Shown here piece by piece: positions 6,045 to 52,800 of a stretch of DNA of 64,000 nt. The DNA comes from Trichuris trichiura (Eukaryota; Nematoda; Enoplea; Trichinellida; Trichuridae), in contig JBAJFE010000062.1 of NCBI GenBank assembly GCA_037903355.1, forward strand, positions 124,001 through 188,000. Reading direction: 5' to 3'. The number at the start of each line of letters is the position of its first letter. Position 1 is the first letter of the stretch. Position numbers and translations under genes: made by a program. Below the pieces are notes generated by a model. The model saw only the letters and a list, made by a program, of their open reading frames with translations. It was not told the DNA's origin and did no database searches.

Positions 6045-6100
6045 TAAACGTTGCGGAGCTTCTGGGACACTCTGAAGCCCGTCTTCAGAGCTACGAATAC
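6045..6100 (-). ncRNA. Degenerate hammerhead motif (left arm)
   Basis: The minus strand carries CUGAAGA, a short GGG/CCC stem, then AGAA in place of GAAA, and GCUCCGCAACG as in other copies. The core is damaged and stem I is not convincing. Mirrored at about 22045-22100. Confidence 0.35.
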
Positions 6101-6479: not shown

Positions 6480-6534
6480 AAGCGTTGTACACGAAGCTTT
6501 CGGGTCCTACCTTGACCCATCTTCAGCGCGAACA
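6480..6534 (-). ncRNA. Hammerhead ribozyme motif (left arm, second locus)
   Basis: This is the mirror of 21611-21665. The core CUGAAGA (position 7 of the core is variable in active hammerheads) is followed by stem II GGGUC/GACCC and GAAA, then GCUU. Stem I is CGCG/CGUG extended by UUGU/ACAA across an internal loop. All core positions are intact. Confidence 0.65.
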
Positions 6535-8121: not shown

Positions 8122-8155
8122 TGTTGCAGGTTGTTTCTAAACGGGATCGCTCGGC

Positions 8156-8163
8156 TTTATATA
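8156..8163 (-). promoter_or_regulatory. TATA box of gene A1
   Basis: TATATAAA on the minus strand, 35 bp upstream of the A1 start codon and conserved at the same spacing in A2 and A3. This implies a short 5' leader. Confidence 0.6.
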
Positions 8164-15860: not shown

Positions 15861-16564
15861 GTAGACATATGCGTGTGCACCCACTTAAGTAGGCCCGCGT
15901 TATCCGCGAACGTGAGTCAACGCGGTTTGTCTTTAGAAAACAATGACTTAATTTTCAGCAGAGATTGACGAATCGCTGCTGAACATAATAGCGGCGCAGT
16001 ATCCTTTTTTGTGTATGTAGTTTTAAGATTCCATCATGTGACTAAAGAAAATGGTTTTTTCTATTCTTATATCTTCTCAACCTGCGCATAATGCTAATAC
16101 CTCGTGTTACTATGAGTTTGTATAATACTAATACTATTGAAAAAGCTTTATTACGGACAGAGTCCCGTTTAATGTGGGATAAAGGCGTTCACGCCTTTAT
16201 CACAACGGGACTCTGTCCGTAATAAAGTTTTTTCATTATGAAAACATACGGTCCCGTACCAAGAAACCACATCTTCGAATACTAATACTAGTTACTACTG
16301 TTGCTTTTAGTTTCTCATTTCCCCAAATTAGGCTTAGGTACCTCATGCTATTGTAAGTCAATTTCTTAAGTCATAATGGCTTATGAATAGTAATAAAACT
16401 CCTTATCCATAGGAGCCTGACGTTATTAAATATGCTTCGGGAAACAGTAGCAACGAAGCTATAGTTTCTGGTTAAAGTCTTCGCGCAAGAATTCGCACCT
16501 TTACTGCCGCCTCGTCGCTGCACTATCCGAAGTTGTTTCCTAGTTCAGAAAAGTTTCAAGAATA
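15861..16564. other. Spacer sequence between elements
   Basis: Apart from the foldback element at 16137-16277 I recognise nothing here. The first part is probably the displaced upstream flank of pseudogene C. Confidence 0.4.
16137..16277 (-). mobile_element. Foldback element with conserved tail, no hammerhead
   Basis: A 141-bp element flanked by the perfect 13-bp direct repeat AATACTAATACTA (16124-16136 and 16278-16290). Palindrome arms of about 40 bp contain TTATTACGGACAGAGTCCCG and start almost at the left end. A tail of about 45 nt follows the right arm and contains GGTCCCGTACCAAGAAAC, also seen in the tail of the Penelope unit at 2710. The central loop is a small self-complementary hairpin, and I see no hammerhead core. 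The arm end CCGTAATAAA..CTTCATTATG resembles the Penelope TIR end, so it is probably a non-autonomous derivative. Confidence 0.75.
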
Positions 16565-17767
16565 CAGTGAAACCTCCCTAATCCAAACCTCCCTTATCCG
16601 AATCCCTCTCTAATCCGAATTCGTGGAAGAGAACAGTAGATCGACAGTGCACAATAAAGATAATTAGGCTACTTGTGCGAAACGCACAGTCATTTGGCGG
16701 AAACGGCTATAAGGCAGCGAACAACCAGCCAATGGTCCTTCCGGTATATGCTAACATAGGCACTGTCCAGCCACGGCTTTGGCGAATTAATCTGGACCAA
16801 TAGGTTGGCTGCAACAATTCACCTCGTGACAGGCTTCCACAAATAAACGGAAATATGCAGTATAGCGGTCAATATTGGCACCGGACAGAGCTTGTCATAT
16901 GTATATGAACATGCCGCGGGAAGACCGTCAATCTAATTGCAGGATGTGCACAAAAATAGAATCGTGTTATGTGAAGGTAGGGCTACCATTTATCTGAAAG
17001 TAGGACTACCACCGCATTATACGAGAACAAACCGTATATAAGGAGAGCAATACGGGAGTCATTATCACTGTGTTCTGGTGTGTTATACGGTTTTGCAGTT
17101 GTCCAAATGTATAAGAGGAAGCACATTACGCTCACGATAGAGAAGAAGGCGGAGATAATCAAAGCATTGAAGAGGGGAGTGACCGGCCGAAGAACAGGAA
17201 GAATGCGATGGACGGCGCAGTTTGTGCTTAAAAAGCGTTCGTGACTTAGCCGTTAGCAGACGTCAAAGCCTGTTGAAGCAGACGCTAATAACTGACTACA
17301 TAAAATAAATTTAGACTTCGTGGACTTCTGCTGCACAGTGGAAGGAAGGATGCTTACCTGTGCGCAACCCAGGAAACAAAGGTTACAATAGCCCAGAAAT
17401 CGCACAATAATCAGCCGCTAACTCAATTTCTTTTCGAGCCGACAGAACTGGCTAGCAACTACGAATATGGGAAAATAAGTTCACGGGAACTATTTCCCAT
17501 GCCGCTTCGCGCTACAGCGTCCACAGCATATAAGAAATTCGTTTCTGCTGGTCAATCGTTTTCCTGAATCAGACGGACTTCGCCGCCCTCGTTAAGCTAT
17601 TCACCGCTTGCAGAGGCTGACATCGCGCTGTAGACGCCAGGAAAATGCATCTAAAATTGCATTACCTGCTTTTTTGTGGCCTACCGTAAGCCTCCTCCAT
17701 AATCCGAATTCTTCTATAATCCGAACTACCCCCGCCCCGACGTGTTCGGATTAGGGAGGTTTCACTG
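16565..17767 (+). mobile_element. Tigger/pogo-like DNA transposon, internally decayed
   Basis: Terminal inverted repeats CAGTGAAACCTCCCTAATCC... (16565) and ...GGATTAGGGAGGTTTCACTG (ending 17767) are flanked by TA on both sides, the hallmark of the Tc1/mariner/pogo superfamily. Motifs of the form TAATCCGAA repeat inside both ends. The interior retains only the start of a transposase (17107-17244). It is inserted against a Penelope RT fragment that begins directly after the right-hand TA. Confidence 0.85.
17107..17244 (+). pseudogene. Truncated pogo/Jerky-type transposase N-terminus
   Basis: A 45-codon frame with KRKHITLTIEKKAEIIKAL, which resembles the N-terminal helix-turn-helix (CENP-B/psq-like) of Tigger and Jerky transposases. 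It ends at TGA (17242-17244) soon after this motif, with no DDE domain recognised downstream. A TATATAAGG lies about 70 bp upstream. Confidence 0.65.
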
Positions 17768-17769
17768 TA

Positions 17770-18303
17770 GTTGAATACTTGGCTAATAAATGACCTGGGA
17801 TATCCGTTCTTGTAGAAAATGTTTCGAATGTGGTTGAACTCTGGTTGAAGATATTCAGGACTGCATAATTTGATTGCTCGATCAATCATTCCGGAGAGGA
17901 TACCACGCATTACTGATCTGGGGTGATGTGATGAAAAGTTGGGGTACTGACCCGTGTGCGTGGGTTTTCTGTATACTCTGGTTTTTAGCTCATCGTTTGT
18001 GCGGATAATTAATGCGTCTAGAAAGGGTAGGGTGTTGTTGTCTTCTTTTTCCATTGTGAAAACAATTTGGTTCGGGCCGATGTTGTTGAGGAATTGTAAA
18101 AATTGCTCTTCCTTTCCAGCTTTAATAATTACGAACATGTCGTCTACGTACCTTTTGAAAAGGCTTGCAGCTATGTGTCTGCCAACCGTTGCGAACATCT
18201 GTCTTTCAAAGCTTTCCATAAATATATCTGCTAATACTGGAGATAAGGCGATGAAGGCATCGTTCGCTCCGCCCTGGTGCATGCGAACGGTACAACCATC
18301 CAT
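17770..18303 (-). pseudogene. Penelope-like reverse transcriptase fragment
   Basis: The open frame reads 17662-18303, but the part below 17770 belongs to the adjacent DNA transposon. The Penelope part contains LSPVLADIFMESFE, the catalytic block KRYVDDMFVI, a region resembling LPFLDALIIR, and KPTHTGQYPNFSSHHPRSVMRGILSGMIDR, the last of which overlaps the N-terminal retroelement part of the GIY-YIG frames at 3187 and 23880. The stretch before LSPVLADIFM (GCTVRMHQGGANDAFIA) looks abnormal for the motif that normally precedes it. No fingers domain upstream and no GIY-YIG downstream: a fragment only. Confidence 0.75.
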
Positions 18304-18380
18304 CGGCCAGCGACGAAAATGTGCTTTCTGGAATCGGCAGATAACGATGTGGACAGCCCCTCAGTCCACAGGGCCGGCGA
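18304..18380. other. Possible remnant of LTR-element interior
   Basis: About 77 bp between the Penelope RT fragment and the LTR. On the plus strand a frame ends ESADNDVDSPSVHRAGDVAN and stops a few bases inside the LTR, as some retroelement polyproteins do. This is weak evidence for a leftover internal region. Confidence 0.25.
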
Positions 18381-18688
18381 TGTTGCCAATTAGGCACTGA
18401 CGACTACGACGCGCTCGCGAAAGGGCCCCCCACCGGTTGGCAGGTAGCCAACTTACTGATTCGTGCCCTCTGGCGGGGTAGCACTCTGCGTCGCGCGGGT
18501 GGACACTCATTCGCTATCTTCGGGTCGTTTGCTCTGGTCGAGATCGCTCGGTTTTGTCTTTCGCTCGTGCTCTTTTGATTGCTAAGTAAAAATCAGTATC
18601 AACTTGTCGATGCCCTGCGCCACTGTATTCGCGCCGTGCATCCTTTGTTCCCAAGATTCCTGAACCACCGCACTTCCTCCCGGCAACA
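18381..18688. repeat. LTR at inner end of right arm
   Basis: Counterpart of the solo LTR at 9457-9764, with TGTTGCC...GGCAACA ends. Its outer flank CTTCC (18689-18693) equals the other copy's target duplication, but the inner flank is GGCGA, so no duplication is present on that side. It differs from its mirror copy by roughly 6% in the stretches compared. Confidence 0.7.
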
Positions 18689-19981
18689 CTTCCAAAACTA
18701 CAAAGACAGCCGCGAAGAACGTGAAAGGTAACATAGTCCGGAAGAAGGAAATGGGCTCAACGAAATGACCTGGAAGAACGCTGATTCGCTAGTGCATGTT
18801 CTGCACTTATGAACGCGCGACTGAGCTGCAATTCTACCCCACGAAAGATGTGAAACAACTATGAATTTCCATTTCGCTGCAATACAAATAACGTGTCACA
18901 CTCGCGCGGCTGTTCACTTAAATGATATGCTGCGCTGTTGCCAATCTGTGATGATGGCATCATTCAAGTCACTGTATGGTCTGTCAGCAGCTGTGTTCGC
19001 CCTTGCTGGACGAAATCAACCAAGTAGTCCATTTGCTCTGCGCTTTCCCCATGTCTGAAAGGATGTTCGTGTTTTTCAATTAACATGTGGCATACTTGAG
19101 ACTGCCACGCTTTGAAAAGGCATGCTTCAAGGATGCGCGTCATCCTCTTGTATTACGCTGGACGGGGAAGAAGTATTAAAAGGCTTAAAAACAGACTGGG
19201 CTACACGGTATAGTTCAAGAAAACCTAAGCATCCGTTCCATCTTACGCAATGACAAAAGAAAAGGTACCACTGGACCAATGGCCTGGGGTGGTTAACGAA
19301 ATAAAACGCGAATGTTCGGCCGCATATACAGCAAAGCCTCCCTAGATCAGACTCGTCAGAGCGGACGGCAGCGCGGATTACGCAAAAATCCGGTCTATGG
19401 AGAAGGCTGACAGCAGATCACAGAACAGCACGTAATAATATTTTAAACGCAGGTTTCAGGGTAGTACCACTAATGTACAATATGCGCCCACTTGAAAGGC
19501 AATTTTCATCTTCTAGAAAGTTGAACGGGACGAATGGCGTAAATGAACTTTGAGGACATTGGGGAAGGTCGAACGTGACGAGTAGAATTGCAGCAACGCC
19601 CCAAAACCTGCTCACGACAGCCCGCCAAATGCAGAACGATGAAGCGGTTGTATTGGCATCGGTTTGAGCATCGTCCTATCCTGAGCAATGACACGATGCC
19701 CAGCAGCACGGAATGTGTTTCATGTTGCATCACTCAGCGAGTCTTTTAGGAAAACGCTCAAACAGTTTATTCGCCTTCCTGAATAGATGAGAAGACGATT
19801 GCGGCATTATTCCGCCTACGAAAAATTGAAACATTGCATACATTCCTGCTGGTATACTGACTGGTGCTTGCACATTTTGAAACAGCAAAACAGCACTGAA
19901 TGTACATACGTTTATTGACAATGGTAACAAAGTAAACCCGTGCAGCAATACGATAGACCCGCACGTTCATCCCCTATTCTC

Positions 19982-19989
19982 TATATAAA
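19982..19989 (+). promoter_or_regulatory. TATA box of gene A2
   Basis: TATATAAA 35 bp upstream of the A2 start codon, with identical spacing in A1 and A3. Confidence 0.6.
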
Positions 19990-20023
19990 GCCGAGCGATC
20001 CCGTTTAGAAACAACCTGCAACA

Positions 20024-20540
20024 ATGCTGCTCACCTACATCTTCTTGCTTGGCTTTTTCATTTCAACTGTGAGGATCAACTAATGTCACTGGGTATTTAT
20101 TAACTGCACTTCTTCAGGCCGTCTGCGAGGAAGAATCTGCACCGGAACAACTGAATGAGGAACCAGAGGCAACCTCTCAGAAACTAACTCTCGCTGTTTT
20201 CCACATGATAGTTTCGCTATTTAGAAAGAAGATCAAACGCCGGAAAGCGTACTGTCAACAACGACAACAACAACAACAGCCAAACCAAGACAGCCTATGG
20301 CAACACCACAAGCCGGTGGCAAAAACGCTGGTTCTCAGAAGGGAGCTAAGTGAGTAACATAGGGGAGACATTCATAATTGTAATTGAACTCGCTGCAGGA
20401 CCAAAGGTGGAAATGGTGGTGTGAAAGGTTTCGCAAGGAAGTTTGCAACGACGGTCACAAAAGGCAGTAAGAAAGCATTCAAAGCGACAAAGGGTGCCGC
20501 AACCAACGTGAAGAACAAGGTCACTAAGAAGAAGAAGTAA
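20024..20540 (+). CDS. Small secreted lysine-rich protein, copy A2 (4 exons)
   Basis: Exons 20024-20068, 20118-20168, 20225-20349 and 20399-20540 join in frame to encode 120 residues. Exon 1 encodes a signal peptide (MLLTYIFLLGFFIST). Exon 2 is acidic (AVCEEESAPEQLNEEPE) and has the only Cys. Exon 3 has a run of threonines (codons ACA/ACG) and a Gln/Gly-rich linker. Exon 4 has 15 Lys and 1 Arg in the last 47 residues with no acidic residue, and ends KVTKKKK. Intron 1 is GT-AG (49 nt); intron 2 is GC-AG (GAG|GCAACC to TTTAG, 56 nt); intron 3 is GT-AG (AA|GTGAGT to CTGCAG, 49 nt). Exon limits agree with the decayed paralogues. Secretion is inferred. The basic tail could bind membranes, nucleic acid or mucins; I recognise no family. 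Confidence 0.75.
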
Positions 20541-21610
20541 ATGGCTTAACGAAGCAACATGCTGCTACGGGGATGAAGAGAAAGAAGAACAGCTTTCAAG
20601 TGCATGTTGTGTTGTTAGGAGAGCGCAACTGAGCTGTACTTCTACCTTAGTAAAGGTGCACATTAAGTTAAAGAATACCGCATTTTGCTGCAATACTCTG
20701 AATAGCGCTTTACTTGCGCGACCGCTCAAGAAACCTTTTGCTGCACTATAGACAATCCAGGCTGAGGGCTTCATTCTAATTAGACTACGTGATGGTTATG
20801 GTGTCGGCACTGTAACCTCAACTTACACAACTCTACATGTAGCTCTTTGCTTCTTAATCGTCTTCCTTTCCGCCTATAAAATTAACTCGCTTGTTCGCGT
20901 TGAATGCTGGAGCTGGTAAAGAGCGCGAAAGCCATGCATTCTTGTCAGTTAAAAGCTGGATAAAGGAAACTTGATCATTTACAGAATAGCGCTTAAGACA
21001 AAAGGCTGTTCGTTAGCGTACTTTGCTGTAGCACATAAGGTAAGTCGCACTCCTGGAGCATGAGTAAAGTAATTACGGGTCATACTCCTGGAAAGAATAG
21101 TTATGACTGTTTAAAAAGTGAACTCCGTGGCATATGAGACTAATAACGAGAGAAGCAACTCGTCATATAGAGAGTAGTTGATATTTCAGCCAAGAGCGAC
21201 ATTTCCAAGTGTCTTCTACGCAATGGTTGCGGACCACTTAAAGTGAGCTTCGAGAGACGAGAGTAATAATGGCATAGCGAAAATAACTACCAACGTTACG
21301 TGACGCACGCCATCGTTTTTAAAGGTAAACATATGGGCGCACTGTGAGCGGGTGGCGAGTCACCATCCCCTTAAGGGTTGCAACCTTTCGGAAACAAAAA
21401 CAAAACCTACCGTTCCTAAGCAATTATCTCGTTGAATATTTGTACATAGCGTAAGCTGACACACTTTTTATTGTAACGCTCCGGCAGTAGTAAGAGTAAC
21501 TTCAATATTAAAATGGTAAATGAACAATTTTCCATTATTGCCCTTTTTCGTGATGACAATATTTTGGTAAATGAATTGTCAATACGATTAAATTAGAACT
21601 TGTTGGGCAT

Positions 21611-21665
21611 TGTTCGCGCTGAAGATGGGTCAAGGTAGGACCCGAAAGCTTCGTGTACAACGCTT
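21611..21665 (+). ncRNA. Hammerhead ribozyme motif (right arm, second locus)
   Basis: CTGAAGA at 21619-21625, stem II GGGTC/GACCC with an AAGGTAG loop, GAAA at 21644-21647, then GCTT and a predicted cut before CGTG. Stem I pairs CGCG with CGTG and TTGT with ACAA across an internal loop. The core is fully conserved. Confidence 0.65.
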
Positions 21666-22044
21666 ATTAACGTCAATAAACGTTCTATAAAAACGGGTTA
21701 AAACCGTAAAATGTTTTTCAAAAATCCAAAAGAAAAAGGAAAATAAGAGAGAGGCAAGCGAGGACAACGAAAACAGTAGCACAGTGACAGATGGGTCAGT
21801 CACAGGAAAGAGAAACGTTTAAAATCCGTTTCGTTTAAGACGGACGGGTATGCACCTTATGCTTGCACCTTGCCGTTCAATTGTTGCGGTGCCGCCGCCG
21901 TAGGTCGGCTGGGCGCTCGCTCTACCGTTTGACTAACTACGCGGGACCAAAGCTTGACGCCTGAAGATAGAGCTGACAGCTGCGGCCTGCCCAAAGTTGG
22001 GCAGACGGAGGGGCTTACAACCATGGAGACCGGTCCGTCGCTGC

Positions 22045-22100
22045 GTATTCGTAGCTCTGAAGACGGGCTTCAGAGTGTCCCAGAAGCTCCGCAACGTTTA
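22045..22100 (+). ncRNA. Degenerate hammerhead motif (right arm)
   Basis: CTGAAGA at 22057, a short stem II, then AGAAGCTCCGCAACG with a damaged GAAA. Mirror of 6045-6100. Confidence 0.35.
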
Positions 22101-23879
22101 TGTAACAATAAACGTTTATGTGAAGAGAACGGGTTCAAAGCGGTAAAAGGTTTCTTCAAAAAAGATTTCCAAGAACCCTGTCACGAATTAAAGAAAAAAG
22201 AAGAACAAAATAAGATTACGATGTTATGTCTTTTCTCCTGTTGAAATAGTTTACCTTGTCCGCTGTACTAGTTGAACCTTGCAACCAGTCAAGCATTCAA
22301 AAAGCGATCAGCAATTTCCTGATGGAGGCTAATAAGATTTTGTGTTGGCCAAACGACTACGTTTGTAACTCACTCTTGTAACGACGTGCGCGTTAGCAGT
22401 TGATCCGCACGTCGATGTTTTCCAAAATTTCCAGAACATCAGAAATTATTTCTAACGCCTGATGGTTGCAAGATTGCAAAATTTGCGATAATGGTTATTA
22501 AGAATTTGGTTTGTGCGACAAATGTGCTTTTCCCATTGGCAGGTGCTTCCAGTCTAGTATCAGCGTTAAATGCTACAAAGCTGTTGACTGCGTTTATTCA
22601 CTTACTGTCACTTCGAACTTGCTTGCGCTAGTATGATTTTTTAAAATGCTGTAAATAATGCAACAAAGAGAAAACTTTTGTCACCTCAGTCAGTTTCAAG
22701 GCTACAGTTGAAACGCTGAGAAAATAAAGCTTTGATCCGCTAAAATATCCAGCATTCTTTCTTGGTGAGTTAGCTGTTTTTTACTTCCGTCTTCAAAGAC
22801 CGACGTTCATTGCAATCACATGCATACAATAGAAGCAAAATCAGTCCCCTACGAACGGTAGGGCTCATATTTTTTTGTCTAGTAACTCTGATAAACGTTT
22901 GTAGGGGCAGTCAGCTATGCCGAAGTCCTCAGAGGGAAACTTAAAATGTTCACTAACTGACACGCACTCAGATCAGTTAAAGCAATAACTACTGTTTAAA
23001 ACTGCCTACTACACTGAGCTTTCTCATGTTTTTGCCAGCAATAGTGCCATTGAGCATCGAGTGATTACAAAGAGTAAATTCTTTCGGTAGACATCCCAGT
23101 AATTACAGATATAATTATCTGGCGTCGTGTGGATGAGTTCGCCTTAAGGTTTGGAGCAGATGTAAATAAAGCCTTTAAAATGCAACCGTTCTGCATCACT
23201 TTACCTCCAAATGCTTAAACGTACTTGCCTACGTATCAATACTCTCTTCTGAAAACACTTCGTTGGCGAAGGCAATTAGAACTTTGGCCAGTAGAGGTGT
23301 TCACGGTCCCAAACTGACTATGGGCTGATCCACGTGTGTTGCTTGTTTTCTTTGCATCCTCGTAATTCCTGTTTAAGAGCTTATCCAGTGTAAGGAAAGG
23401 CTGCAAGAAGTAACGAAGTCGCAAACATCATACCTCTTAATGGTTGTGCCTGTGATCTATTATAGAACTATTACTCATCACTGCGCAGCTATCCTTTCAG
23501 AAGTTGCGAAATGCCTAACTAAACTCTCCAGAGCTGTTTATGCGCAGAATGCCATTCTGCTCAAAGCAGTTTGACTTTCTATTTTCCAAGGACAGATGGT
23601 ATTGCCATTGTCTATGTCGTTAACTGGTTCAGTGAACGCAGCAGTAGGGAAGTCTCGAAAGCTCACATTTTTTGTTTCTTATGGCCATTGCAAATATACT
23701 GCTTGCACAAGGCATCGGTTGGAAGTTGTAAAATTTTCTGAATCACCGTACATGGTTATCCTCATCATTTCGCAATAAGGAACAGCTCAGGTAGACCGTA
23801 AGCTTTAAAATGGGTTTCTTGAAAAGAAACGTTTGAACAGCACGCTGGCGAGAAGCTTCACCTTCTTGATTAATAACTT

Positions 23880-24959
23880 TTGGGTCTGCTTGAAGGGATT
23901 AGCAAGTTACAGTACATCCTTCCGAATGACTCAGTGTCTCTTTCAGGAAAAAAGCAGACAGCATATATAAAGCTCCGTTGGAGTTGCGATTGTATGCACT
24001 CTGACTGCGAACATGCAGTGCTGATAAGGAAAATTGCGGTTCCCTTAAGGACAAGTTCGTACATAATGAAGAAGTTTATTACGGATAATTCCCGTTTGTT
24101 CTGTATATATAGAAGAACTCTGGAGCTTTCAGGTCATTCGAGACCCGTCATCAGCGGTCTTAGGTACCTCAGTTTTTCACCACATCACCCACGATCAGTA
24201 ATGCGTGGTATCCTCTCCGGAATGATAGACAGAACATTCAATTTATGCAGTCCCGAATATCCCCAGCCAGAAATTAACTACATTAGAAAAACCTTCTATA
24301 AAAACGGTTACCCTAAATCCTTTATCAACCAAGTGCTCAACCACAGACTTCGCACACGTGGGTCTCCAGAGCAAAACACTCCGCACGACACTTGTCTGGT
24401 TATTCCTTATGTGGCAGGCTTAGGCGAAAAGATTGTACAATTAGGAAAGAGATTAGGTTTCAGAGTCTTTTTCAAAAGTTCGCCCAATCTTAGGGCAATT
24501 CTTCGCACAGACAAAACTAAAATCCCCGAAAACAAAAAGACAGGACTAATATACGCGGTTGAATGTTCTTGCTCAGGGATTTACATTGGTGAAACGGGAA
24601 ACACCCTAGAGCATAGATTCAATGAACACATGAAAAAACTCACAAGTTACAATAACGCGAAAACCATACTTGACAATGGCACCAATCTAACCACACAGCG
24701 AGGCAGACCAATCGTGGACCCAAAACTTACAATGGAAAAAGCCAAACAAGCCTCTGCTGTAGTGGAGCATGCGACGCAATGTACCCAACCACTCCACCCA
24801 AGAGTTTTATGCTACGAAAACAATTTACGGTTACGAAGAATTAAGGAAGCACTGTACATTAGACACAATACGACCTACAACCGCGATCAAGGAGTGGACA
24901 TAAGTGCGATTTGGACAAATATTGTGACGCGGTATAATTGTTGCTCTCTCACCAGATGA
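23880..24959 (+). pseudogene. Penelope-like RT C-terminus plus GIY-YIG endonuclease (right arm)
   Basis: The encoded 359-residue frame is identical to that at 3187-4266. The GIY-YIG core GIYIGETGN lies at about residue 225-235. The N-terminal 60 codons lie outside the element and are unlikely to be part of a real protein. Because both copies are identical, conservation here says nothing about selection. Confidence 0.8.
24111..24166 (-). ncRNA. Hammerhead ribozyme motif (right arm, 5' TIR)
   Basis: Mirror of 3980-4035. CUGAUGA and GAAA are intact on the minus strand; stem I is weak. Confidence 0.55.
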
Positions 24960-25299
24960 AATACAATAGCCCGGAAAGAAAAAAGAAAAAGACAACTAAT
25001 TAGAACAAATAGAAATGGATAGGACTGCAATATATATGGAACGAAAACGGAAAAGAAAAAGAAAAAAGAAGAAAGAAAGAAAGAAAAATGAATGGAAAAT
25101 GAAATAACACTGAACCAACAACAAAAAATGTTCGTAACTACCCAGCCAAGACACAATCTACAAGACATACCGAACAAGAAATAGAAGTACGCTGACAGAC
25201 TCAGATGCCAGGATTTACGAACAGAAAACTTTAAAAATGCCCGCTTTAAAATCTTCAGAAACATTAGGGCACTCGCTGCCATGAATCATATCAACAACC

Positions 25300-25350
25300 T
25301 AAGACCGCTGATGACCGGTCTCGAATGACCTGAAAGCTCCGCAGTTCTTC
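25300..25350 (+). ncRNA. Hammerhead ribozyme motif (right arm, 3' TIR)
   Basis: CTGATGA at 25308-25314, stem II, GAAA at 25332-25335, then GCTC and CGCAG. Mirror of 2796-2846. Confidence 0.65.
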
Positions 25351-25787
25351 TACATATACAGAACAAACGGGAATTATCCGTAATAAACTTCTTCATTATG
25401 AAAACATTTGTTCGCGTACCAAGAAACCCCGTTTTGAAGTTCTTACATGTAGCATATGAGTCCCATTTAATGAGGAAAAACTATAAAAAGTCAGTCTAAC
25501 CAATGAGTCTTCAATGTGTGCTTGCGTACTCTTAGTGAACTGTCTAATTTCCTTCTGTTCAATGGTTCTACATCTTCGGATCCCTGTTTTAACAATACCA
25601 TTGCCAGCTTTATTTTTAGGGGCATAATCTGACAAAGAAGGCAGTGGGATCCTCCTCTAAGAGTAGGATAAACAAAAATTAGCAAGATTAACAGAATTAA
25701 CAGTGGGTGCACACAGCTTTGTCTATTATCAGCTATAGAATGGGTTAGTACAAAGAGGAATTCAGTTTCCAAACGATATACGCAACA

Positions 25788-26290
25788 ATGTTGTTCATTT
25801 TTCTTTTCTACATTGCCCTCTTCATCTCCACAGTGAGGACCTTTCAATACGACCAGCGTTCTACTAACTGTACTTCTTCGGGCCGTCCGCCAAGAACAGT
25901 CTGGACAGCAGCCGGAAGCGTCTGAACCACAGGTGACACTCTTTTCTAAATGAACTCACACAGTTCTAAGCAGACAGTTTCCATATTTACGAAAAGGACA
26001 ACCAAGAAGGCGAAGATGTAGAAAAAAGCGAACAAGTGCCAACAAGGACTGCAAACCAAGCGCTACCACTATCAGCGCAAAGCTACTGTCAGACAAAGTT
26101 CGCAACCAAGTGGTCGTTCTCTGAAGACAGCTAAGTGAGTGACATAAGGGATACATTCCCATCTGTAATCAGACTCGCTGCAGGGCAAAGGGAAGAGGTG
26201 CGAAAGGTTTCGCGAAGACGTTTACAGGGTCGGTTGCATAAGGTAGCAAGAAAGCTTCCAAAGCTACAAAGACAACCGCGAAGAACGTGA
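25788..26290 (+). pseudogene. Lysine-rich secreted protein pseudogene B2
   Basis: Mirror of B1, with the same acceptor loss (CGG for CAG) before exon 2 and the same in-frame TAA in the last exon. Exon 1 (MLFIFLFYIALFIST) and the GT donor of intron 2 (CAG|GTGACA) are preserved. The TATA position is degenerate (ctatagaatg). Confidence 0.75.
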
Positions 26291-28144
26291 AAGGTAACAT
26301 AGTCCGGAAGAAGGAAATGGGCTCAACGAAATGACCTGGAAGAACCCTGATTCGCTAGTGCATGTTCTGTACTTATGAACGCGCGACTGAGCTGCAATTT
26401 CACCCCAGGAAAGATGTGAAATAACTTCATGAATTTCCATTTCGCTGCAAACAAATAACGCGTCACACTCGCGCGGCTGTTCACTTAAATGATATGCTGC
26501 GCTGTTGCCAATCCGTGATGATGGCATCATTCAAGTCACTGTGTGGTCTGTCAGCAGCTGTGTTCGCCTTTGCTAGACGAAATCAACCATGTAGTCCACT
26601 TGCTCTGCGCTTTCCCTATGTCTGAAAGGACGTTCATGTTCTTCAGTTAACCAACTTGCTTACGTAAAACGTATGGACAAATGGCAATACGTGAAATGTT
26701 AAAAATGAAAACGGGAATAATCATGGAGCAGCCTTATCATTATGCAAATTATAAACAGGCACCATGGACAGAGGCGCTAGTGCGGTTTGGACAAGTTGTT
26801 CTTCCCTATCTCATACTGCCAGGAAACGTCTGCTCTGCAGAACAGCAATTGAGACCAAAATGGGAAGCTCTTACTGTATAGAGGAAGCGTTGCTGAATTA
26901 GTTGCAGAGTGAAGAAGACCTCTACCTCACATGAAGTGTTCAAATTTCGATTGCTCAATAGGCAAAGTGTCGTCAAGGACATTCTGTAAATGCGCGAGTA
27001 CAGTTGCAGAAAGCAATCCATTTTGACGCAAGTGAACGGAACCACGAGCTCACTGGTACTAATCCACTATGATGTCTGATCTCCCCTATCACGACTAGAA
27101 AAGTCTCCTTTTGGTTCAGCTCACAATGCGTAATGCCTCACCGCCCATGCTTAGGAAACTTCATTTCAGAAGGCCTTTTCGTACTGCTTATACATTTTGT
27201 GAGTTTTCTTTTCTTATGATACATTTCCAACGGCTAGTTTCTATTGCTCCGCGAGCAAACGCGTCGTGGAATCTACTTTTCCTTGTATCCTGTTTCCAAC
27301 ATCCTACCTTCTGCGATGTTCCCTTTCATTGTGCTGCAAAAATGAGAACAGAGAAACAAACGTTTCCATAAGACAACGTTTGTCCCGCTACAATTCGCTC
27401 TGATTTCATTGCTCAATCATATTTCATAAATCGGAGCAACAGGCAACCACAACTGTCTGTGCTGTTTCTTTCGTATGCTTTGCCCTGTCGGTAAATAGTA
27501 AGCAAATGAATCTGTCAAAATCCATTTTATCGTGACGCGCAATACTAAACCCTCAAAGTCAGGCAAATACCGCTATACTTGAGATACATACGGGTAGATG
27601 TTTTTACAAAGATTCAAAACTGCTAGACCCGCATAAGTACTGCGCAAAGGTGCAGAAAAATATGTCCATAGAAAGTTGTTCCGTTGGAAAGAATTACCTG
27701 GAAAATGAAGCCTGTCGAAGACCGGGGGGACTAAAATACTGCCCTTGTTCCAGTTAAACGCGCTGCTTGAGAAAGAAAAAGCGCACGCCCGTACGCGCGT
27801 GTAGACTTTCCTTTTGCTGGCAACCATCTTCAGATAACTTGACCTGCAGAATCCCAGAACAGCCAAAGCAAATGGAAGTGCGCCGGCCTATGGCCACGAA
27901 TCGGTAGGCAAGTAACCCGCGGAAACGTGCCGCATGGTAAGGAAGCAGTGAGGAACAGAGATGGCAAGAAAACGAAACAGCCAGCGAAAAGATACTTTTC
28001 AAGCACGACTGACCAGGATCATGTAGCTTCAGAGGCACCGGAATAAGGTTCTCCAGCGGCGTGATCACTTGACAAAATACTTGGCCGCACAGCAGAGGGA
28101 GGTCTCCACGCCGAGAAATATTAAATGGAATGGAAGCTTTCGAA

Positions 28145-29884: not shown

Positions 29885-30377
29885 CATGCATAGGGCAATC
29901 TTTCTCTGCTAGGAAGTTAAGCTGGACGAACAGCGTGAATGAACTTTGAGGACATTGGGGAAGGTCGAACGTGACGAGTAGAATTGCAGCAATGCCCCAA
30001 AACCTGCTCACGACAGCGCGCGAAATGCAGAACGATGAAGCGGTTGTATTGGCATCGGTTTGAGCATCGTCTTATCCTGAGCAATGACACGATGCTCTGC
30101 AACACGGAATGTGTTTCATGTTGCATCACTCAGCGAGTCTTTTAGGAAAACGCTCAAACAGTTTATTCACCTTCCTGAATAGATGAGAAGACGATTGCGG
30201 GATTATTCCGCCTACGAAAAATTGAAACGTTGCATACATTCCTGCTGGTATACTGACTAATGCTTGCACATTTTGAAACAGCAAAACAGCACTGAATGTA
30301 CATACGTTTATTGACAATAGTAACAAAGTAAACCCGTGCGGCAATACGATAGACCCGCACGTTCATCCTCTATCCTC

Positions 30378-30385
30378 TATATAAA
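30378..30385 (+). promoter_or_regulatory. TATA box of gene A3
   Basis: TATATAAA 35 bp upstream of the A3 start codon. Confidence 0.6.
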
Positions 30386-30419
30386 GCCGAGCGATTCCGT
30401 TTAGAAACAACCTGCAACA

Positions 30420-30936
30420 ATGCTGATCACCTACATCTTCTTGCTTGGCTTTTTCATTTCAACTGTGAGGATCAACTAATGTCACTGGGTATTTATTAAC
30501 TGCACTTCTTCAGGCCGTCTGCGAGGAAGAATCTGCACCGGAACAACTGAATGAGGAACCAGAGGCAACCTCTCAGAAACTAACTCTCGCTGTTTTCCAC
30601 ATGATAGTTTCGCTATTTAGAAAGAAGATCAAACGCCGGAAAGCGTACTGTCAACAACGACAACAACAACAACAGCCAAACCAAGACAGCCTATGGCAAC
30701 ACCACAAGCCGGTGGCAAAAACGCTGGTTCTCAGAAGGGAGCTAAGTGAGTAACGTAGGGGAGACATTCATAATTGTAATTGAACTCGCTGCAGGACCAA
30801 AGGTGGAAATGGTGGTGTGAAAGGTTTCGCAAGGAAGTTTGCAACGACGGTCACAAAAGGCAGTAAGAAAGCATTCAAAGCGACAAAGGGTGCCGCAACC
30901 AACGTGAAGAACAAGGTCACTAAGAAGAAGAAGTAA
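30420..30936 (+). CDS. Small secreted lysine-rich protein, copy A3 (4 exons)
   Basis: Exons 30420-30464, 30514-30564, 30621-30745 and 30795-30936, with the same phases and the same GC-AG second intron as A2. The product is again 120 residues. Exon 1 differs at one residue of the signal peptide (MLITYIF for MLLTYIF); I see no change in exons 2-4. It lies outside the palindrome and so is an independent intact copy, which supports the gene being functional rather than merely carried along by the arm duplication. Confidence 0.75.
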
Positions 30937-31926
30937 ATGGCTTAACGAAGCAACATGCTGCTACGGGGATGAAGAGAAAGAAGAACAGCTTTCAAGTGCA
31001 TGTTGTGTTGTTAGGAGAGCGCAACTGAGCTGTACTTCTACCTTAGTAAAGGTGCACATTAAGTTAAAGAATACCGCATTTTGCTGCAATACTCTGAATA
31101 GCGCTTTACTTGCGCGACCGCTCAAGAAACCTTTTGCTGCACTATAGACAATCCAGGCTGAGGGCTTCATTCTAATTAGACTACGTGATGGTTATGGTGT
31201 CGGCACTGTAACCTCAACTTACACAACTCTACATGTAGCTCTTTGCTTCTTAATCGTCTTCCTTTCCGCCTATAAAATTAACTCGCTTGTTCGCGTTGAA
31301 TGCTGGAGCTGGTAAAGAGCGCGAAAGCCATGCATTCTTGTCAGTTAAAAGCTGGATAAAGGAAACTTGATCATTTACAGAATAGCGCTTAAGACAAAAG
31401 GCTGTTCGTTAGCGTACTTTGCTGTAGCACATAAGGTAAGTCGCACTCCTGGAGCATGAGTAAAGTAATTACGGGTCATACTCCTGGAAAGAATAGTTAT
31501 GACTGTTTAAAAAGTGAACTCCGTGGCATATGAGACTAATAATGAGAGAAGGGATAAACATATACATTCATAACATTGGAAGTAGTTATTATTTCGTCCA
31601 AGGGGGACATTTCCAAGAATTGTCTTGCTAATGGTTTAAACCACTGAAAGCGATCTTCACGAAATCGGTGTAAAAAGGTCATATCGAAGATAACTACCAC
31701 CAGTATATGACGTACATCATTTTCTTCTTTGTGTGATTTTATGTCTCGCTTTCACTGAGGACAGGTGGGTGAAGGCTGCTCTGAAGGAACACTGGCTCCG
31801 TGTAGTCACCCGCGATGATTCATGCGTCGACTCGACAAGAAGGCACCTCTGTTGGCAATACAGAAAGGAGTCTCACCAGCCAGTCCTGGTGAAGGCAAAG
31901 AGAAGTTTTGTGAGATTTGTTCGTTT

Positions 31927-32860: not shown

Positions 32861-34133
32861 TCAGTACACGGGTGTACGACAAACTGCCCCTCCTGATGTC
32901 GTTGGACAGCATTTCATTCTGCCAGAGCAACTCTTATCGCTGTAGCAACTTTTTATACGGGCAAGGGGAGATGAGCACTCAATGATCCTGCATTTGCCTG
33001 GTTTGCTTTCAACAGGGAAACCCGGTGGTCTCCTGCACATTCGGCCCCTATCGTGAGGGCAACATTTCAAGTTTCCTGAACATTGACTATCACCAAGGCA
33101 CTGGTGTTTATTCCCCCATTTCGATGGGTGGAGATAGACTTTTGGACAATCTCCTGGCTTTGGTTTTTCTGATAACTCCTTCGGGTCGACGCACATAAAC
33201 CCGCTCGAAGTGTTGCAGCATTTTTTCTCCCCAGAACAGACAGAATCGTTAGCACAAGAGATTGCCTCGCCAGTGGTCACATTTGTCGTTGGACAAGTGC
33301 CTAGTTTTGGTGCTCCATCAGATTTGGCTACTGCAAAAACATCTTTAATAGAGTAGGGTCAATGAAAAGGCTAGTGTGAAAAGAGTTTTAAAAGTCTTTA
33401 TCTTTCTTTCACTTTTGTCCGTTCAACTCAGCTTCAGCTACTTTGGATTTACTATTTAGCTAACTTTGCACCATGTACAATAATCTCCTATGCTGAACAG
33501 TGAGCGGACAAAGAGCAAGAACGTAGTATCAGGTGAACGATTAGCTTAAGTTGCTCATGCTATAGCGAATTGAGCAAAAGCGTTCATTAACTAACGTAAA
33601 GAGCTTTTTCTCTTGAAGTAGACATATCTTGAAATTAAGTCCTATGTTCAGTATGAAACGCTTTTAAAGCAAAATCAGCTAAGTAGCCGAAGGGTTTATC
33701 AGTTGACTGACGGTAAAAGTTGGTAAAAACTCGAAGTTTGATCTTGCAAAAATTCAAGAAGCACGGATGTAAAGGACCTATTGTGCATTTATAGTCAGAA
33801 TGCACGCGATTAAAGCCATCAGGAATGAATTATTTTGTTAAAACAACATAAACCTGACGAAACTATTTAAATTACATTGCATTCTTGTATCACTCCAATT
33901 TCAGAGCCCATAATTTATATGTATACAGAATTACATATGAGGTTGAATTAGTGGGACATTGAACTTCTTTTATATTTTTTCCTTCAACATTACTTCCAGC
34001 GAGAAACAGAAATGCAATTTGGCTTGGTTGTGGGAATTAAGAGATGTAAATACTTCGGCTTTAGTTTCTTACCAATTGAGAAGAAAACTTCGACGCTCAA
34101 ACTAGCAAGAAATATGTAGCCCAATTGTATCAT
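32861..34133 (-). CDS. Secreted three-domain WAP-like protein (2 exons)
   Basis: Exon 1 (34133-34073) encodes a signal peptide, MIQLGYIFLASLSVEVFF, and ends ATT G|GTAAGAA. Exon 2 (33330-32861) follows TTTTTGCAG and continues in frame to TAA, giving 176 residues. Three tandem WAP-type (four-disulphide-core) repeats start GTCPTT, GDCPKV and GKCRII; each has the typical D/S-x2-CSG-x4-CC-x5-7-C ending (for example CSGEKKCC, CSGNLKCC, CSGRMKCC). Domains 1 and 2 have only six cysteines each and domain 3 has seven, against eight in the canonical WAP fold, so about one disulphide is lost. WAP proteins are often protease inhibitors or antimicrobial; such secreted proteins are abundant in whipworms. 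The 742-nt intron is long for this region. Confidence 0.8.
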
Positions 34134-34773
34134 AGCGTAAGAAATGGCACCCCAATTCTTCACGCTTCCTTATGTAGCACTGAACTAAGAAAAGAGTATT
34201 CATCATACACAATGATAAGCTTTCTTTCCCCAGCTTCCAAGTAAACAAATCGTAAAGCAAGCCCATTCTTAGTGTCAAACATTCAACTAAATGCCACCTT
34301 CGCTATATGCAGTAGCAAAGGCTGCTCTCCTTCATTGAACGCATTCACACCCAACTCGTGTAAACTAAGGCTTCATAATAGAAGAGCGATGGAGTGAAAA
34401 CAAGGCAAAGTCGTAAACAAACTCAGCTGGGATAATTTGCAGCATAGCATTTCAAAGACGACTGTTAGGAGCACACGGATCAGAAATGTTTATGCATGCG
34501 TAAATTTGTATAGGTAGCTACGCTGCTCTATGAGCTTTTTTCACCATTCTTTTATCGAATACAGTCGAAATGCAAGCTAAAAAAATTTATTGGCTGTTAA
34601 AGGTTGCGATCTTCTCAAAACTAATCTGTTCAGCTTTTAAAGTGGGCAGGATATCAAACGCAGCTTCACTGTAATGCACACACAAACACTTCGCATCGCT
34701 AAGTAAAGTCTTTGTAAACACATTCCTCAATACATTAACATTTGCGTTTAAAAAAACCTGTTTTGCTGTTGAT
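34134..34773. other. No gene recognised
   Basis: AT-rich upstream region of the WAP-like gene. No distinct promoter motif identified. Confidence 0.4.
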
Positions 34774-35019
34774 TTTTTGGCTTCTTTTTGTACGGATTTT
34801 CTATGTCCCGTTGAAAAAAAACTTATTAATAAACTGTCCGTAGCTTTCGGGTCCGAACTTGACCTGTCATCAGCGGTCTATGACGGGTCAAGTTCGGACC
34901 TGAAAGCTACGGACAGTTTATTAATAAAAGTTTTTTTTTCAACGGGACATAGAAAAATCCGTACAAAAAGAAGCCAAAAAATGAAATTATTTGGTCCCGT
35001 ACGAAGACACTATATTTTC
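34774..35019 (-). mobile_element. Foldback element with hammerhead ribozyme
   Basis: 246 bp flanked by the perfect 9-bp repeat GCTGTTGAT (34765-34773 and 35020-35028). Near-perfect palindrome arms of about 100 bp begin at the left end. A tail of about 36 nt with TTTGGTCCCGTACGAAGACAC follows the right arm. This architecture and the tail sequence match the elements at 2710, 16137 and 50928. A hammerhead core lies at the centre on the minus strand. The plus-strand half has lost part of its CTGATGA. The short open frame spanning the palindrome is not a gene. Confidence 0.8.
34833..34885 (-). ncRNA. Hammerhead ribozyme motif in foldback element
   Basis: Minus strand: CUGAUGA (complement of 34867-34873), stem II GGUC/GACC with loop AAGUUCG, GAAA (complement of 34845-34848), then GCUA with a predicted cut after UA. 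Stem I is CCG/CGG close to the core. All conserved core bases are present. Confidence 0.65.
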
Positions 35020-36177
35020 GCTGTTGATATTTAAAACAATAGAAAGATTCAACTAACGGATATCCCTTTTCGACTATTCATTGCAAAGAGGGATGCATTT
35101 TTACTCTTTCATTGCTGTCATTAGCAACCAACTCCAATGGACGTTTTAAGCTCAGCTACTGGTCGTACGAGAACTGTTAGGAACAAAAACAATAGCGGCC
35201 CAAGCTCGGAACAAATGCATGTGAGCTTTCCGTATCCACGACCTCGTTCACTTGAATCAATACTGTTTACCGGAAGTTCTTGTAAAAAAGGTTAAACTTG
35301 GCAATGAACTTGTGCCTGGATAAAAATTCTGCTGAAGCTAAAATTACGCTGGCAGGAACGAAACTGTTTGCAATCAACGAGTCGATAAGAAAAGTGATAA
35401 CGCTTTTGCATATCATCAATGAGCAGTTACACGCTAAACAAAATGCTGAACTGAACGCTCACAGGTGATTTATGCCGCATTAAACTTCATTTCTTGCTAG
35501 GTTGTTTACCGCCAAAGGTCTGGTTCGACATTTAACAACGCGAAGTCTTTCTCGTCATCTTAACTACATGACGGCGAATTCACGCAGCTGCCATTCGAAA
35601 TGCTAAGAAAAAACAGATTCATTCAAAATAGCAGGAGCATCTGCTCCCTTAATTTTTGTAGGCAACGTGCTACCAAAAATTCTGTAATATTGTAAGAAAG
35701 AACTACTATCAGTGACGATCGATCATTGCTAGCCCTGAGAGGGCAAGTTTCAGATACAAGAAGAGTCCTAAGAAGCATTACCGCAAGTGGTAGGCTTCAA
35801 CTTCTGCCATAAGTGCAGCTACCCAGAACAGAAATAGTTCAGCACATTGAGTACGCTGGGCTAAACTTTTAAATAGCGTTCCAGAAGACGGATTATATAT
35901 AGCCTGTCCACTGAGACAAAGAAGGATGACTACCTCCAAGGCAATGCTCAAACGCATGCATCCATGAAGACCACCTGAAATGTATCAAGGATGTATGCGC
36001 AGTCTGTGCACTGAAATTCTCTGAACCGAATTATCAGAACATCGAGATCCTTTCCCATCGCTCCTATTCAAATGAGTTTTCTCTAATTAAGGTGATCTTT
36101 ACGAGATGATCAATGCCTTTTCAGAAAAACGTGAACGTAACATGCATTTATGCATGACAGCTAACTAGACTGGCTTT
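35020..36177. other. No gene recognised
   Basis: No frame with domain or splice support on either strand. Confidence 0.4.
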
Positions 36178-36274
36178 GAAAATATAACTTTTTGGTACGG
36201 GAACACAGGTTTTCATGTTTGGACTCTTCGTACGGAGACTGTCCGTTAAAAAATACAAACAAATTTTATTGGTA

Positions 36275-36320
36275 GGCCGTAGCTTTCGGGCCGCGAGTAA
36301 CTCGACTTCAGCGGAATCTT
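36275..36320 (-). ncRNA. Hammerhead-like motif, minus strand
   Basis: CUGAAGU (complement of 36305-36311; last core A changed to U), then GAAA (complement of 36284-36287) and GCUACGG; stem I CCG/CGG. Probably inactive because of the A-to-U change. Confidence 0.4.
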
Positions 36321-36368
36321 TGGTACCGCTGAGAAAGGGTAACGCGCAGCCTGAAAGCTACGGCCTAC
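36320..36368 (+). ncRNA. Hammerhead-like motif, plus strand
   Basis: CTGAGAA at 36329-36335 (core G changed to A), GAAA at 36353-36356, GCTACGG; stem I CCG/CGG. A decayed partner of the minus-strand motif. Confidence 0.35.
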
Positions 36369-36785
36369 CAATAAAATTTTTTTGTGTATTTCCACGGGAT
36401 CTATAGGCACTTTTGATTATTGTCGTCTTGGAAATTTAGTAACAAATACAAAAAATACAAAACGATTTAAGGCAAGGCTTCAGAATGGGCTGCGTCAAGC
36501 GTGACTCAAACGTATTATTCAGTCGTTTTCATAAATTTAAGATTTACACGTGCTCTCCTACGAAATCATACAGGTTTCACATAAAAACACTTTTTAAAAA
36601 CTCACCTGCCAGAGAGTACCGTTTTTCTTTGTACTTGATTACCATTTAACGACTAGCGCTTGATCATCCTTAAGGACGTTAAGTTTAAACTGCTCACGGC
36701 AAAGCCGACCAATCATCCCCATTCTCAGTCGTTGCTTTGTGTAAGTTAGTGTGCGCTCGCCTGCCTTGCTTCCCTGCTGTTTATA

Positions 36786-49800: not shown

Positions 49801-52800
49801 CAAAAGATATTCAGTGAGCAGTTCCACCGCCAGACCTAAAAACAAGCATCATCAGCGGCTGACGTTGCTTTGAAATGAGCAATACAACCTGAGTTGTTCA
49901 AAGTAAGTTCCTGAGAATCGTTAGCACTTTCTCTACGATTCGCTTTTGGAGTCGACCGCACAAAAGGACCTTCGGAAAGTCTACGCAAAGTACGCAGTGA
50001 ACAAGAAGTGAACATTTTTGCCAAAAAAAGATAACTTTACCCGGCCAGTTTTGCGTCAAGCAATTCTGAATAGATCTTTTCGCTTTCGGACTGACTGAAG
50101 CTTTTTCTTTCTGCAAAAGTCCTCACAGGTCAACAGCCGAGCCCGCGAAACTTTTCGGACGCGTGCGTAACACAGTAGGTCTTGTAATGTTCGAAGAATG
50201 CTATTTAATCGTATGCATGCGCCATACATAGCAGAAATGCTAATAGCATATTTTGTGACCCACTTCGCTCACTCAACTTGTGAACTGCAAAAAATCATCC
50301 TTATTTGCTCAATATGGTAAAATTAAATTAATAGTTAGGGTAATAATACCGATGAAAAAATTATGCCTAAGTCTTGCTGCTTACTGCGAAAACCAATTCT
50401 ACTTTTACAACTGTCAAAGCCAAGATGTTATTCTACGCTTAGACATTTAATGACGTCAGCTACCTCCTTGAGATTCTGCTTTATAGGAAAACGGCGTTAG
50501 AACTTCGGCGCTCTTCCTCCGTTCAGCTTCGTCCTCCCATATGTACTTCAAACCCGGATTTTTCAACTGCCCTTAAAAGGAGAAGTATATTGAAGAAACA
50601 GTCAGCGAAAATACCTGAGCTAGGAAGAGTGACGTTCAGGATTTCTGCTTCGGTACAATCCATCTCAATCTGACATCTACTCTGTGCTTTCAACCGCCTA
50701 ACATTTATGAATCTGTAAGAGTGTTGCCAAACAATACTAGATTACCTTTCGTCACTCAGCATCGTTCCTGAAACGTGGTACGAGATTAAAAAACGTAAAA
50801 GAGCAGACCCTTAAGGACATGTACCTTCGTCATTGCTGCAACGCATTTTTACTGTGCTAAGCCGAATGAAGTCCATTCCGTACAAATTGTAATCGATGAA
50901 AAACTAAAATATGCAATACGACTTAGTGTTTCGAAAAACAGGATGTCTTTTAACAGGCTTGAATAGTTTCATAGTAGATCTTCAGATTCACGGGTTTTGC
51001 CTGTTGGGTGTATCTGTAAGTAAACTTCAAAATGCCTTACCAACGGATGGATGAGCAAATTGTTAGAGAAATTACAGAACAAATCGAATACCGTACGTTT
51101 CGGAACTGCTCGTGTTCCGTCGTCAGCAGTGTTGGGGAGTAGCAGGGAGGAGTTGGGGATTTGTTCTGTAATTTCTCTAACAATTTGCTCATCCATCCGT
51201 TGGTAGGGCATTTTGAAGTTTACTTACAGATACACCCAAGAGGCAAAAACCCGTGAATCTGAAGATCTACTATGAAAATACGACTTAGTAGTACAAAACA
51301 AATTTCGTTAGAGCAAAAGAAAGTAAGCTTTCTCAACTGCCGTCTTACCCAATCATGACTATATGAAGCTTTTGTGTTAATAATTAGTAGTTCTTAACAG
51401 CAGTCACTACTCTAAAGATTTTCTTAACTAGTAATTAGCATACCTTCACGGTCATTTCTGCTAAGGAAAGCATGATTTACAAAAATTGTACGAATAATAT
51501 ACTCAAGGATCACTCGTCTCGATTAGAAAACAGAAATGGAAAGCATAAACACCTAACGCAATAGAAAGCTGCAGAAGTTCGTTGGATCTTGCGGATTACC
51601 GCCCCATAGTCATACTGTAAGCTTGTGAGCCAACTTCTTCTGGCTTTAGCTAAGGCTAAGTCTAAACATGAGGCCTATATTTTGGCTTAGGCTTAGATAA
51701 AGGCAGAAAAAAACAGCAACCATGTTCTCCAGTGAAGGTAGAAGAGCACGGCTGCATGCTTATCAAAAAGGAACCTGCGTATCTCAAATAATGGGGCGGG
51801 CAAGCGAGAAGCAGTACAGGTTTATTAAGAAATATAATTGCAGCGTTATTTTACCAACAAAGCTTCAGGTTTTTAAGTTGAACCTTTCATGTGCAAGGTT
51901 CTGTCCCGCAATAAACTCACTGTTAGAGGAAATAAAATTTTTATTTATTACGGGTGCCTATGGTACTTTTCTTATCCACTTGCTGAATTAAGAAGCAATA
52001 ATAATAATAATAAAATACGTTTAGTTAGCACAATCCAATTCATACAAGAAATGCTTTCAGCCTACCTGCAGTGAGAACGGTATGTGGGCTTCGTACGGTT
52101 GCATTGGTACACCTTTTACCTTTCCGAGGTAGCAAAAATGCGAAGCTCTCAAAAAAGTGACACAACAACTGATTTTAGACAAAAAATACGCAAGCGGTGT
52201 TACTTGGAAATTAACAACGGGTTGTACAAAACGATTTTCAGGAAAGTAGATTCACTCTGGTGGTAACCATAGAATGGCCTTGAAATATTCTTGTCAGAGC
52301 GGTATTGTAAACAATTTTAGCTTACGTAAGCTTAACCGCGGAGACTTTGCGGACATAGCGTCTTACAGTAGACACTTTCCTAGCTGTAGCGAACTTTTCC
52401 AAATCGGCAGCTTCAAGCTGCTCGTTCAAGTCCGCTTTGATTGCTTGAAGGAAATCTTCCGATGGATATGCACAAGGAGACTGGACGTAAAAGTAGGGAA
52501 ATACGCCATGCACATGTAGGCAACATTTTTTGCCTGAAAAATTAAGAAGCAATCAATAGTACCCAAAGGATCCTAACCTCAACTGCCGCCAAAAACATGA
52601 GCGAGCTTCTAATTAAAAAAATCGTATAGAAAAGTCAAATACTAAATAAGCTACGAAGGCAGCGTTGATGGTTGAGAATTTACGTTTTACGAAAGGATGG
52701 GCCCTTAGAAAATGTTCGTGACGAAGCATAAAATAAACCATATAAGTTAGCATGGATAAACGGAAGACATTAAAACTTGCCGTTTGGTAAGCTTCCGAAA

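Follow-up and report, generated by a model that had tools for sequence, protein, structure and literature searches.

The palindromic insertion at positions 34774-35019 of the window and its relatives in the Trichuris trichiura genome are probably one-step insertion products of endonuclease-bearing Penelope-like elements (PLEs), formed by two-ended priming and by joining of the two resulting cDNAs head to head. Each hairpin seems to have come straight from PLE RNA, with severe 5' truncation. The window is the whole stretch of 64,000 nucleotides that was analysed, corresponding to positions 124001-188000 of its contig, and the genome searched comprises 72.7 Mb in 62 contigs.

The element at 34774-35019 is a palindrome with one side flush with a 9-bp target duplication and a 39-nt tail on the opposite side. 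The left copy of the duplication (GCTGTTGAT, 34765-34773) abuts the tail-less end of the left arm (34774-34870, minus strand), a pseudo-LTR that is antisense on the plus strand. At the centre junction the aligned arms are separated by nine nucleotides (34871-34879), a junction that recurs in none of the other copies compared, and the right arm (34880-34980, plus strand), also a pseudo-LTR, is truncated within the hammerhead. A minimal hammerhead motif, CTGATGA ... GAAAGCTA/CGG (34826-34883), is complete on the minus strand only. The right arm continues into the tail (34981-35019, plus strand), which corresponds to codons 1-13 of the PLE open reading frame (ORF) (MKLFGPVRRHYIF) and is followed by the right copy of GCTGTTGAT (35020-35028). 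The left flank (34520-34773) is single copy.

The sequence-only reading had placed this element with others in the window on the basis of a shared palindrome, tail and duplication, and that design holds at 34774, 16137, 50928 and 2710, with 36178 lacking a duplication as it had claimed. The short hairpin at 16137-16277 (plus strand), of the MKTYGPVPRNHIF subfamily, has its tail at 16238-16276, no hammerhead core and a 13-bp duplication (AATACTAATACTA, 16124-16136 and 16278-16290). The hairpin at 50928-51276 (minus strand) belongs to a divergent PLE family; its tail lies at 50934-50972 (MKLFKPVKRHPVF) and its 13-bp duplication, AATACGACTTAGT, at 50915-50927 and 51277-51289. The copy at 36178-36412 (minus strand; tail 36178-36216, MKTCVPVPKSYIF) is decayed, with a degenerate hammerhead core and a truncated far arm, and no target duplication was found at its flanks. 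A longer inverted PLE insertion at 2710-4083 (minus strand; tail 2710-2748) has a GIY-YIG region between its arms, and its duplication, GTAAGAACTT/GTACGAACTT, agrees at 9 of 10 bp by eye and is exact over 6 bp only. The mirror of this insertion, at 24062-25435 (plus strand), is not an independent insertion, because it lies inside a 9.8-kb inverted repeat that duplicates 2710 (window positions 1-9764 against 18381-28144, 99.3% identity, with an 8.6-kb spacer and touching the left edge of the window). Hammerhead cores had been reported in most of the five elements, and PLE-type motifs are indeed present in three (2710, 34774 and 50928): by pattern and by eye, CTGANGA...GAAA is complete in 2710, in one arm only of 34774, and as a single central copy in 50928.

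Other features of the window include an extra inverted copy of part of the 9.8-kb repeat at 29894-31551 (98.3% identical to 6990-8647) and, in the spacer of that repeat (10571-15706), a 1711-aa open frame that resembles a BEL/Pao-type polyprotein by eye. A PLE reverse transcriptase (RT) fragment from another PLE insertion lies at 17662-18360 (minus strand), and at least 150 relatives of it were scored genome-wide; an open frame at 32861-33358 (minus strand) encodes repeated cysteine-rich units that look WAP-domain-like by eye.

Codons 1-13 of the PLE ORF make up the tail, and the sequence 5' of the ATG makes up the arm. This assignment follows because long open PLE copies begin with the tail peptide and continue into the PLE protein. 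One of them (L077), complete from the initial M, starts MKTHAPIQKHHVF-KTIKGEYGTPLL, and another (L078) reads MKI-YGPVRRNHIF-KTIQGVYGTPLL, its first codons (M-K-I) being supplied by the adjoining piece L080. In a further locus (L033) the tail sequence is followed by a frameshifted, decayed PLE body. Most copies recovered by peptide pattern have a tail translation of MKxxxPVxRxx[VI]F or near it, and the tails of 34774, 16137, 36178 and 50928 are all among the matches of this type. A codon-position test of the tails for coding constraint gave 0.41, 0.39 and 0.41 at positions 1, 2 and 3, in a set where most copies are dead and the search pattern itself fixes some positions. That the tail might be part of an unrelated known repeat, an outcome named in advance as refuting the earlier claim, is ruled out, since the PLE ORF begins with this tail.

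The arms are PLE pseudo-LTRs lying directly 5' of the ORF ATG. PLE coding is flanked by two inverted arms in 12 of 18 loci chosen by likeness to the 34774 arm and tail, for example in the layout arm(-) EN(-) / EN(+) arm(+) tail(+); the rest consist of arms only (two), coding with one arm found (three) and a single arm (one). RT and GIY-YIG regions adjoin arms and tails, and both occur in one ORF, as is characteristic of PLEs. RT and GIY-YIG proteins of Trichuris suis and T. muris are among the closest named proteins, with example matches of 62% over 84% of the query and 80% over 42%. Pfam matches to the PLE coding were weak, RVT_1 falling under its cut-off, and no GIY-YIG match was found there at E up to 0.01. 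The earlier proposal that the elements belong together and were made by Penelope-type machinery is upheld; nearly all have target duplications, and PLE coding is present in some.

The hammerhead motif of the arms consists of CTGANGA, a 5-bp stem II, GAAA, stem III and then A, C or T ahead of CGG. Stem III is one A-T pair closing a 2-nt loop, and there is one extra nucleotide between A9 and stem II relative to the usual form. The alignment used 20 hand-picked sequences of 68 distinct ones, and the invariance of the core is partly by construction because the finding pattern demands most of it. In the fold, 97.2% of cells are paired against 95.8% in shuffled alignments, 10 of 500 shuffles being equally high. 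Covariation is weak (two double changes, both in 50928), as most pairs scarcely vary. A gathering scan of the whole window with Rfam did not call a hammerhead, nor did E-value scans of the window, of 51060-51180 and of one related locus, which returned chance hairpin-like or snoRNA-like matches only. The minimal type I hammerhead expected in a PLE pseudo-LTR is recognized here by motif. PLE hammerheads are described as minimal, without helix III or its usual contacts, in PMC7761336. Within an inverted copy, base pairing between the hammerhead and its complement is possible and would probably leave the hammerhead inactive.

The sequence-only reading had proposed a genome scan with the tail and arm ends and a count of target duplications, whose absence was to speak against it. 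Tail-core matches and target duplications both exceed chance. Allowing at most one mismatch, the tail core has 994 matches (510+484) in the 72.7-Mb genome versus 1 for the reversed control. We studied 55 elements, comprising a T set (the first 30 exact tail-core matches on contig C1), an F set (20 loci resembling 34774) and the five from the window. An inverted arm is present in 51, with none within reach in the other four; four of the 30 tail-selected loci have no inverted arm inside 1.5 kb, which counts against the explanation we prefer. An exact duplication of at least 8 bp flanks 40 of the 51 two-armed elements versus 19 of 1005 shuffled flank pairs, and two of the 40 (L012 and L056) sit in simple repeats. 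For 12 further copies of the 50928 family, counted with no shuffled control, duplications of 11-16 bp were found in 11, and the remaining one (L090) is unmeasured. Unoccupied sites were sought with 40 joined flanks in the fetched DNA, and two genuine-looking unoccupied paralogues were recovered, one clean at 74% (L059) and one, for 16137, at 71% with a gappy junction. Matches for L018 and L021 were rejected as artefacts of tail or arm similarity, and those for L062 and L056 were judged likewise from their coordinates; a further candidate match pairs L064 with L047.

The outer ends of the elements are asymmetric. The tail-less arm end falls at -5 to +8 relative to the ATG in 44 of 51 elements. 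Tails were counted in a sample selected by arm, not by tail, which contains 91 arms, with arms less than 3 kb apart taken as neighbours. Neighbouring pairs are head-to-head in 30 cases and tail-to-tail in none; two of the 32 neighbouring arm pairs are tandem and are candidates for the partial tandem arrays that PLEs can form, and 31 arms have no such partner. Exactly one tail is present in 25 of the 30 head-to-head pairs, both in three and none in two, and the counts are the same when all tail places are included; a tail with more than three mismatches would escape detection in this sample. Were each end to choose independently at one half, the probability of at least 25 in 30 would be near 0.00016. 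The span between the arms is below 400 bp in 20 of the 30 pairs. Both ends also appear tailed at L036 (3012-5708), a 2.7-kb near-perfect palindrome (99.3%) with PLE arms, which is probably a duplicated locus.

These ends bear on the possibility that a single cDNA folds back and self-primes its second strand, which would supply the second arm. Loop-free perfect palindromes form some of the centres (L064, L071 and L015), as self-priming would give. Self-priming should however copy the tail to the other end, yet the tail-less ends sit at about the ATG in the 44 elements above and two tails occur in only 3 of 30 pairs; moreover, many centres join arms of unequal length. We therefore consider self-priming unlikely. 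The centres of L058 and L047 hold long TA-rich or AAT repeats.

The hairpins look as if they formed anew at each insertion from two head-to-head cDNAs, because the copies compared each have a centre junction of their own. At a score of 0.9, no centre junction is shared in 210 pairs among 21 short elements of the 34774 family, nor in 276 pairs among 24 short T elements; the closest pair, L009 and L011, reaches 0.88. Arms within an element diverge by 1.7% in 20 F elements and by 6.4% in 21 T elements, and arms of different elements by 8.3% and 32%, respectively. Mean arm distances reveal no clustering into left and right, left arms being on average no nearer to left than to right arms of other elements. 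Against formation at insertion, 6 of 20 F and 5 of 21 T elements have a left arm that lies closer to the left arm of some other element than to the right arm of the same element.

The earlier note had regarded most of these hairpins as non-autonomous derivatives, and a foldback family of this kind, with whole hairpins transcribed and re-inserted in trans by PLE proteins, would account for the many short non-coding copies with common arms and tail. With no compared copies sharing a centre junction, the hairpins do not behave like a family copied as a unit, and this designation is not borne out. Arm lengths that vary within and between copies and the lack of left-right clustering in the mean distances also argue against such a family, which we regard as quite improbable. 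Barely plausible is a foldback or MITE-like DNA transposon that has acquired PLE sequence: it would explain long inverted repeats with target duplications, but the ends are asymmetric, as a rule one bearing the 39-nt tail, the centres are not shared among the compared copies, and in the longer copies RT/GIY-YIG coding is collinear with the arms. Foldback and MITE elements are recognized by symmetric terminal inverted repeats that are copied as a unit, and these were not found in the insertions examined.

Hammerhead cleavage was rejected as the cause of the centres. Cleavage predicts arms that begin at CGG, right after GAAAGCT(H). The motif could be placed in 54 of 63 two-armed elements (the nine unscored include 16137), and in none of the 54 does the shorter arm end within 3 nt of it: 31 end at least 30 nt upstream, 11 upstream within the hammerhead and 12 downstream. 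One possible exception is the tail-less arm of L087, scored at +5, which by eye, with a 2-nt indel permitted, may reach the cleavage site. L067 lacks a second arm and begins a few nucleotides upstream of that site. Since arms do not end at the cleavage site, most template RNAs appear to have been uncut there.

The inner boundary of the arms was located by comparing the sequence upstream of 92 motif-bearing places, from the window and fetched loci, with four references; L001-L008 were left out as duplicates of others. In the F family (n=52), 28 places run through the 34-nt upstream reference and 24 stop within it, of which 14 stop at 12-19 nt before AGACCG, 10 nearer and none at 20-33. In the G/C families (n=29), the stop lies at 13-14 in eight, nearer in 14 and, weakly, at 20 in one; the other six, among them both members of the 2710 mirror pair, run through the reference. 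Eleven places fell to the fourth reference, 10 of them over 4 nt only, and so had nothing usable to be compared with. Among 13 tail-side arms of the 50928 family, seven stop at -13 of the first C of the core, one at -14 and one at -12; L091, among the seven, probably continues past an indel, so that 8 of 13 are counted within -12 to -14. The remaining stops are at 0, +10, -30 and -61. The boundary thus lies 18-25 nt (F), 19-20 nt (G/C) and 12-14 nt (50928 family) upstream of the first C of the core. At the boundary the F and G families have TTC/ATA, and the family of 50928 has TT/CTCCCC; both are candidate initiator-like sequences. We read this boundary, 12-25 nt upstream of the hammerhead core, as the putative 5' end of the mRNA. 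The scatter of the arm stops counts against this reading, with 10 of 24 in F nearer the hammerhead and the other 14 spread over 12-19, and 14 of 29 nearer in G/C. By eye, the 5' regions of two full-length copies have no simple boundary: in L079 a truncated inverted arm is joined to a longer 5' region, and in L080 inverted PLE coding is joined near the ATG.

Two-ended insertion of PLE RNA is best modelled as follows. The PLE protein would cut both target strands, and each freed 3' end would prime reverse transcription within PLE RNA, the first roughly at the ATG and the second some 39 nt downstream of it; these two start sites would leave, as a rule, a single end tailed. Both cDNAs would extend toward the RNA 5' end and then be joined head to head, and filling of the staggered cut would generate the target duplication. 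Use of the ORF start closest to the mRNA 5' end would let the cDNAs run off after about 100-130 nt, or after about 165 nt in the 50928 family, giving non-coding hairpins. Priming at an ORF start farther downstream, on a longer RNA, would place RT/GIY-YIG coding between the arms. The joining, the gap filling and the reason for the tail asymmetry are steps that we infer. More broadly, and with some reserve, we lean toward the view that PLE integration is two-ended by rule, with fixed and distinct starts (one near the ATG, the other 13 codons into the ORF) and cDNAs running toward the mRNA 5' end, that hundreds of hairpins map this 5' end 12-25 nt before the hammerhead core, and that most templates are not self-cleaved.

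Much of this architecture has precedents. According to PMC3846280, Adineta vaga Pen2a and other rotifer Penelope elements have inverted pseudo-LTRs, one of which carries a 31-bp tail, together with a duplication of 9 bp; the pseudo-LTR of Adineta Penelope spans the first 12 codons and the pseudo-LTR with the tail spans 22, and self-priming is proposed for the rotifer elements. The T. trichiura elements are like these in their inverted pseudo-LTRs, in a tail that continues the ORF start, in their target duplications (8-10 bp in the rotifer elements) and in their 5'-truncated derivatives. In contrast to those elements, most insertions of the one family sampled here are short (the 20 of 30 spans below 400 bp), the tail core has 994 matches, and many arms end just 5' of the hammerhead. 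Often-inverted pseudo-LTRs with a 30-40 bp tail at one end and duplications of variable length, as found here, are PLE features. An inverted pseudo-LTR with tail and duplication is a published PLE hallmark, and the earlier suggestion that the elements form a new class is not supported.

The Poseidon/PAc element of Anolis carolinensis provides a biochemical parallel (PMC11167929). The anole PLE protein cuts and extends both target strands, and the tail of a PLE is the interval between two internal RT start sites that bound it (PMC11167929). Our elements are like Poseidon/PAc in having a tail between two RT starts near the ORF start and a hammerhead near the pseudo-LTR/ORF junction, and in that unprocessed RNA is the dominant template in vitro in that system (PMC11167929). 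In contrast, the hammerhead is upstream of the ATG here and across it there, and the arrangement is head-to-head here (30 versus 2 tandem pairs, in one family sampled) and tandem there (PMC11167929). The commonest RT start of Poseidon/PAc, 111-118 nt into the ORF, is farther in than here, and its start sites are alike on both strands (PMC11167929), which counts against the proposed mechanism. Metazoan retrozymes (PMC7229834) likewise carry hammerhead motifs in short elements of about 170-400 nt that lack coding, but they have circular RNAs, and their canonical type I hammerheads lie in direct tandem repeats. Here 30 pairs are head-to-head versus 2 tandem, and stem III of the minimal hammerhead is a single pair; the retrozyme layout, tandem direct repeats bearing canonical type I hammerheads, was not found in these insertions.

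Among open-licence papers we found no literature on such PLE elements in Trichuris. The present data contribute an abundant set of PLE insertions, centre junctions that are each compared element's own, the rule of one tail per insertion and the inner boundary of the arms. Completion of PLE integration after priming is said to await validation (PMC11167929), and the role of PLE hammerheads is called a mystery in PMC7761336. Hairpins of this kind should not be named as a new non-autonomous class. They form a large natural insertion set, in which the outer ends give RT start sites and the centres may give the RNA 5' end, and their tail asymmetry is a rule that a reconstituted reaction could be asked to reproduce.
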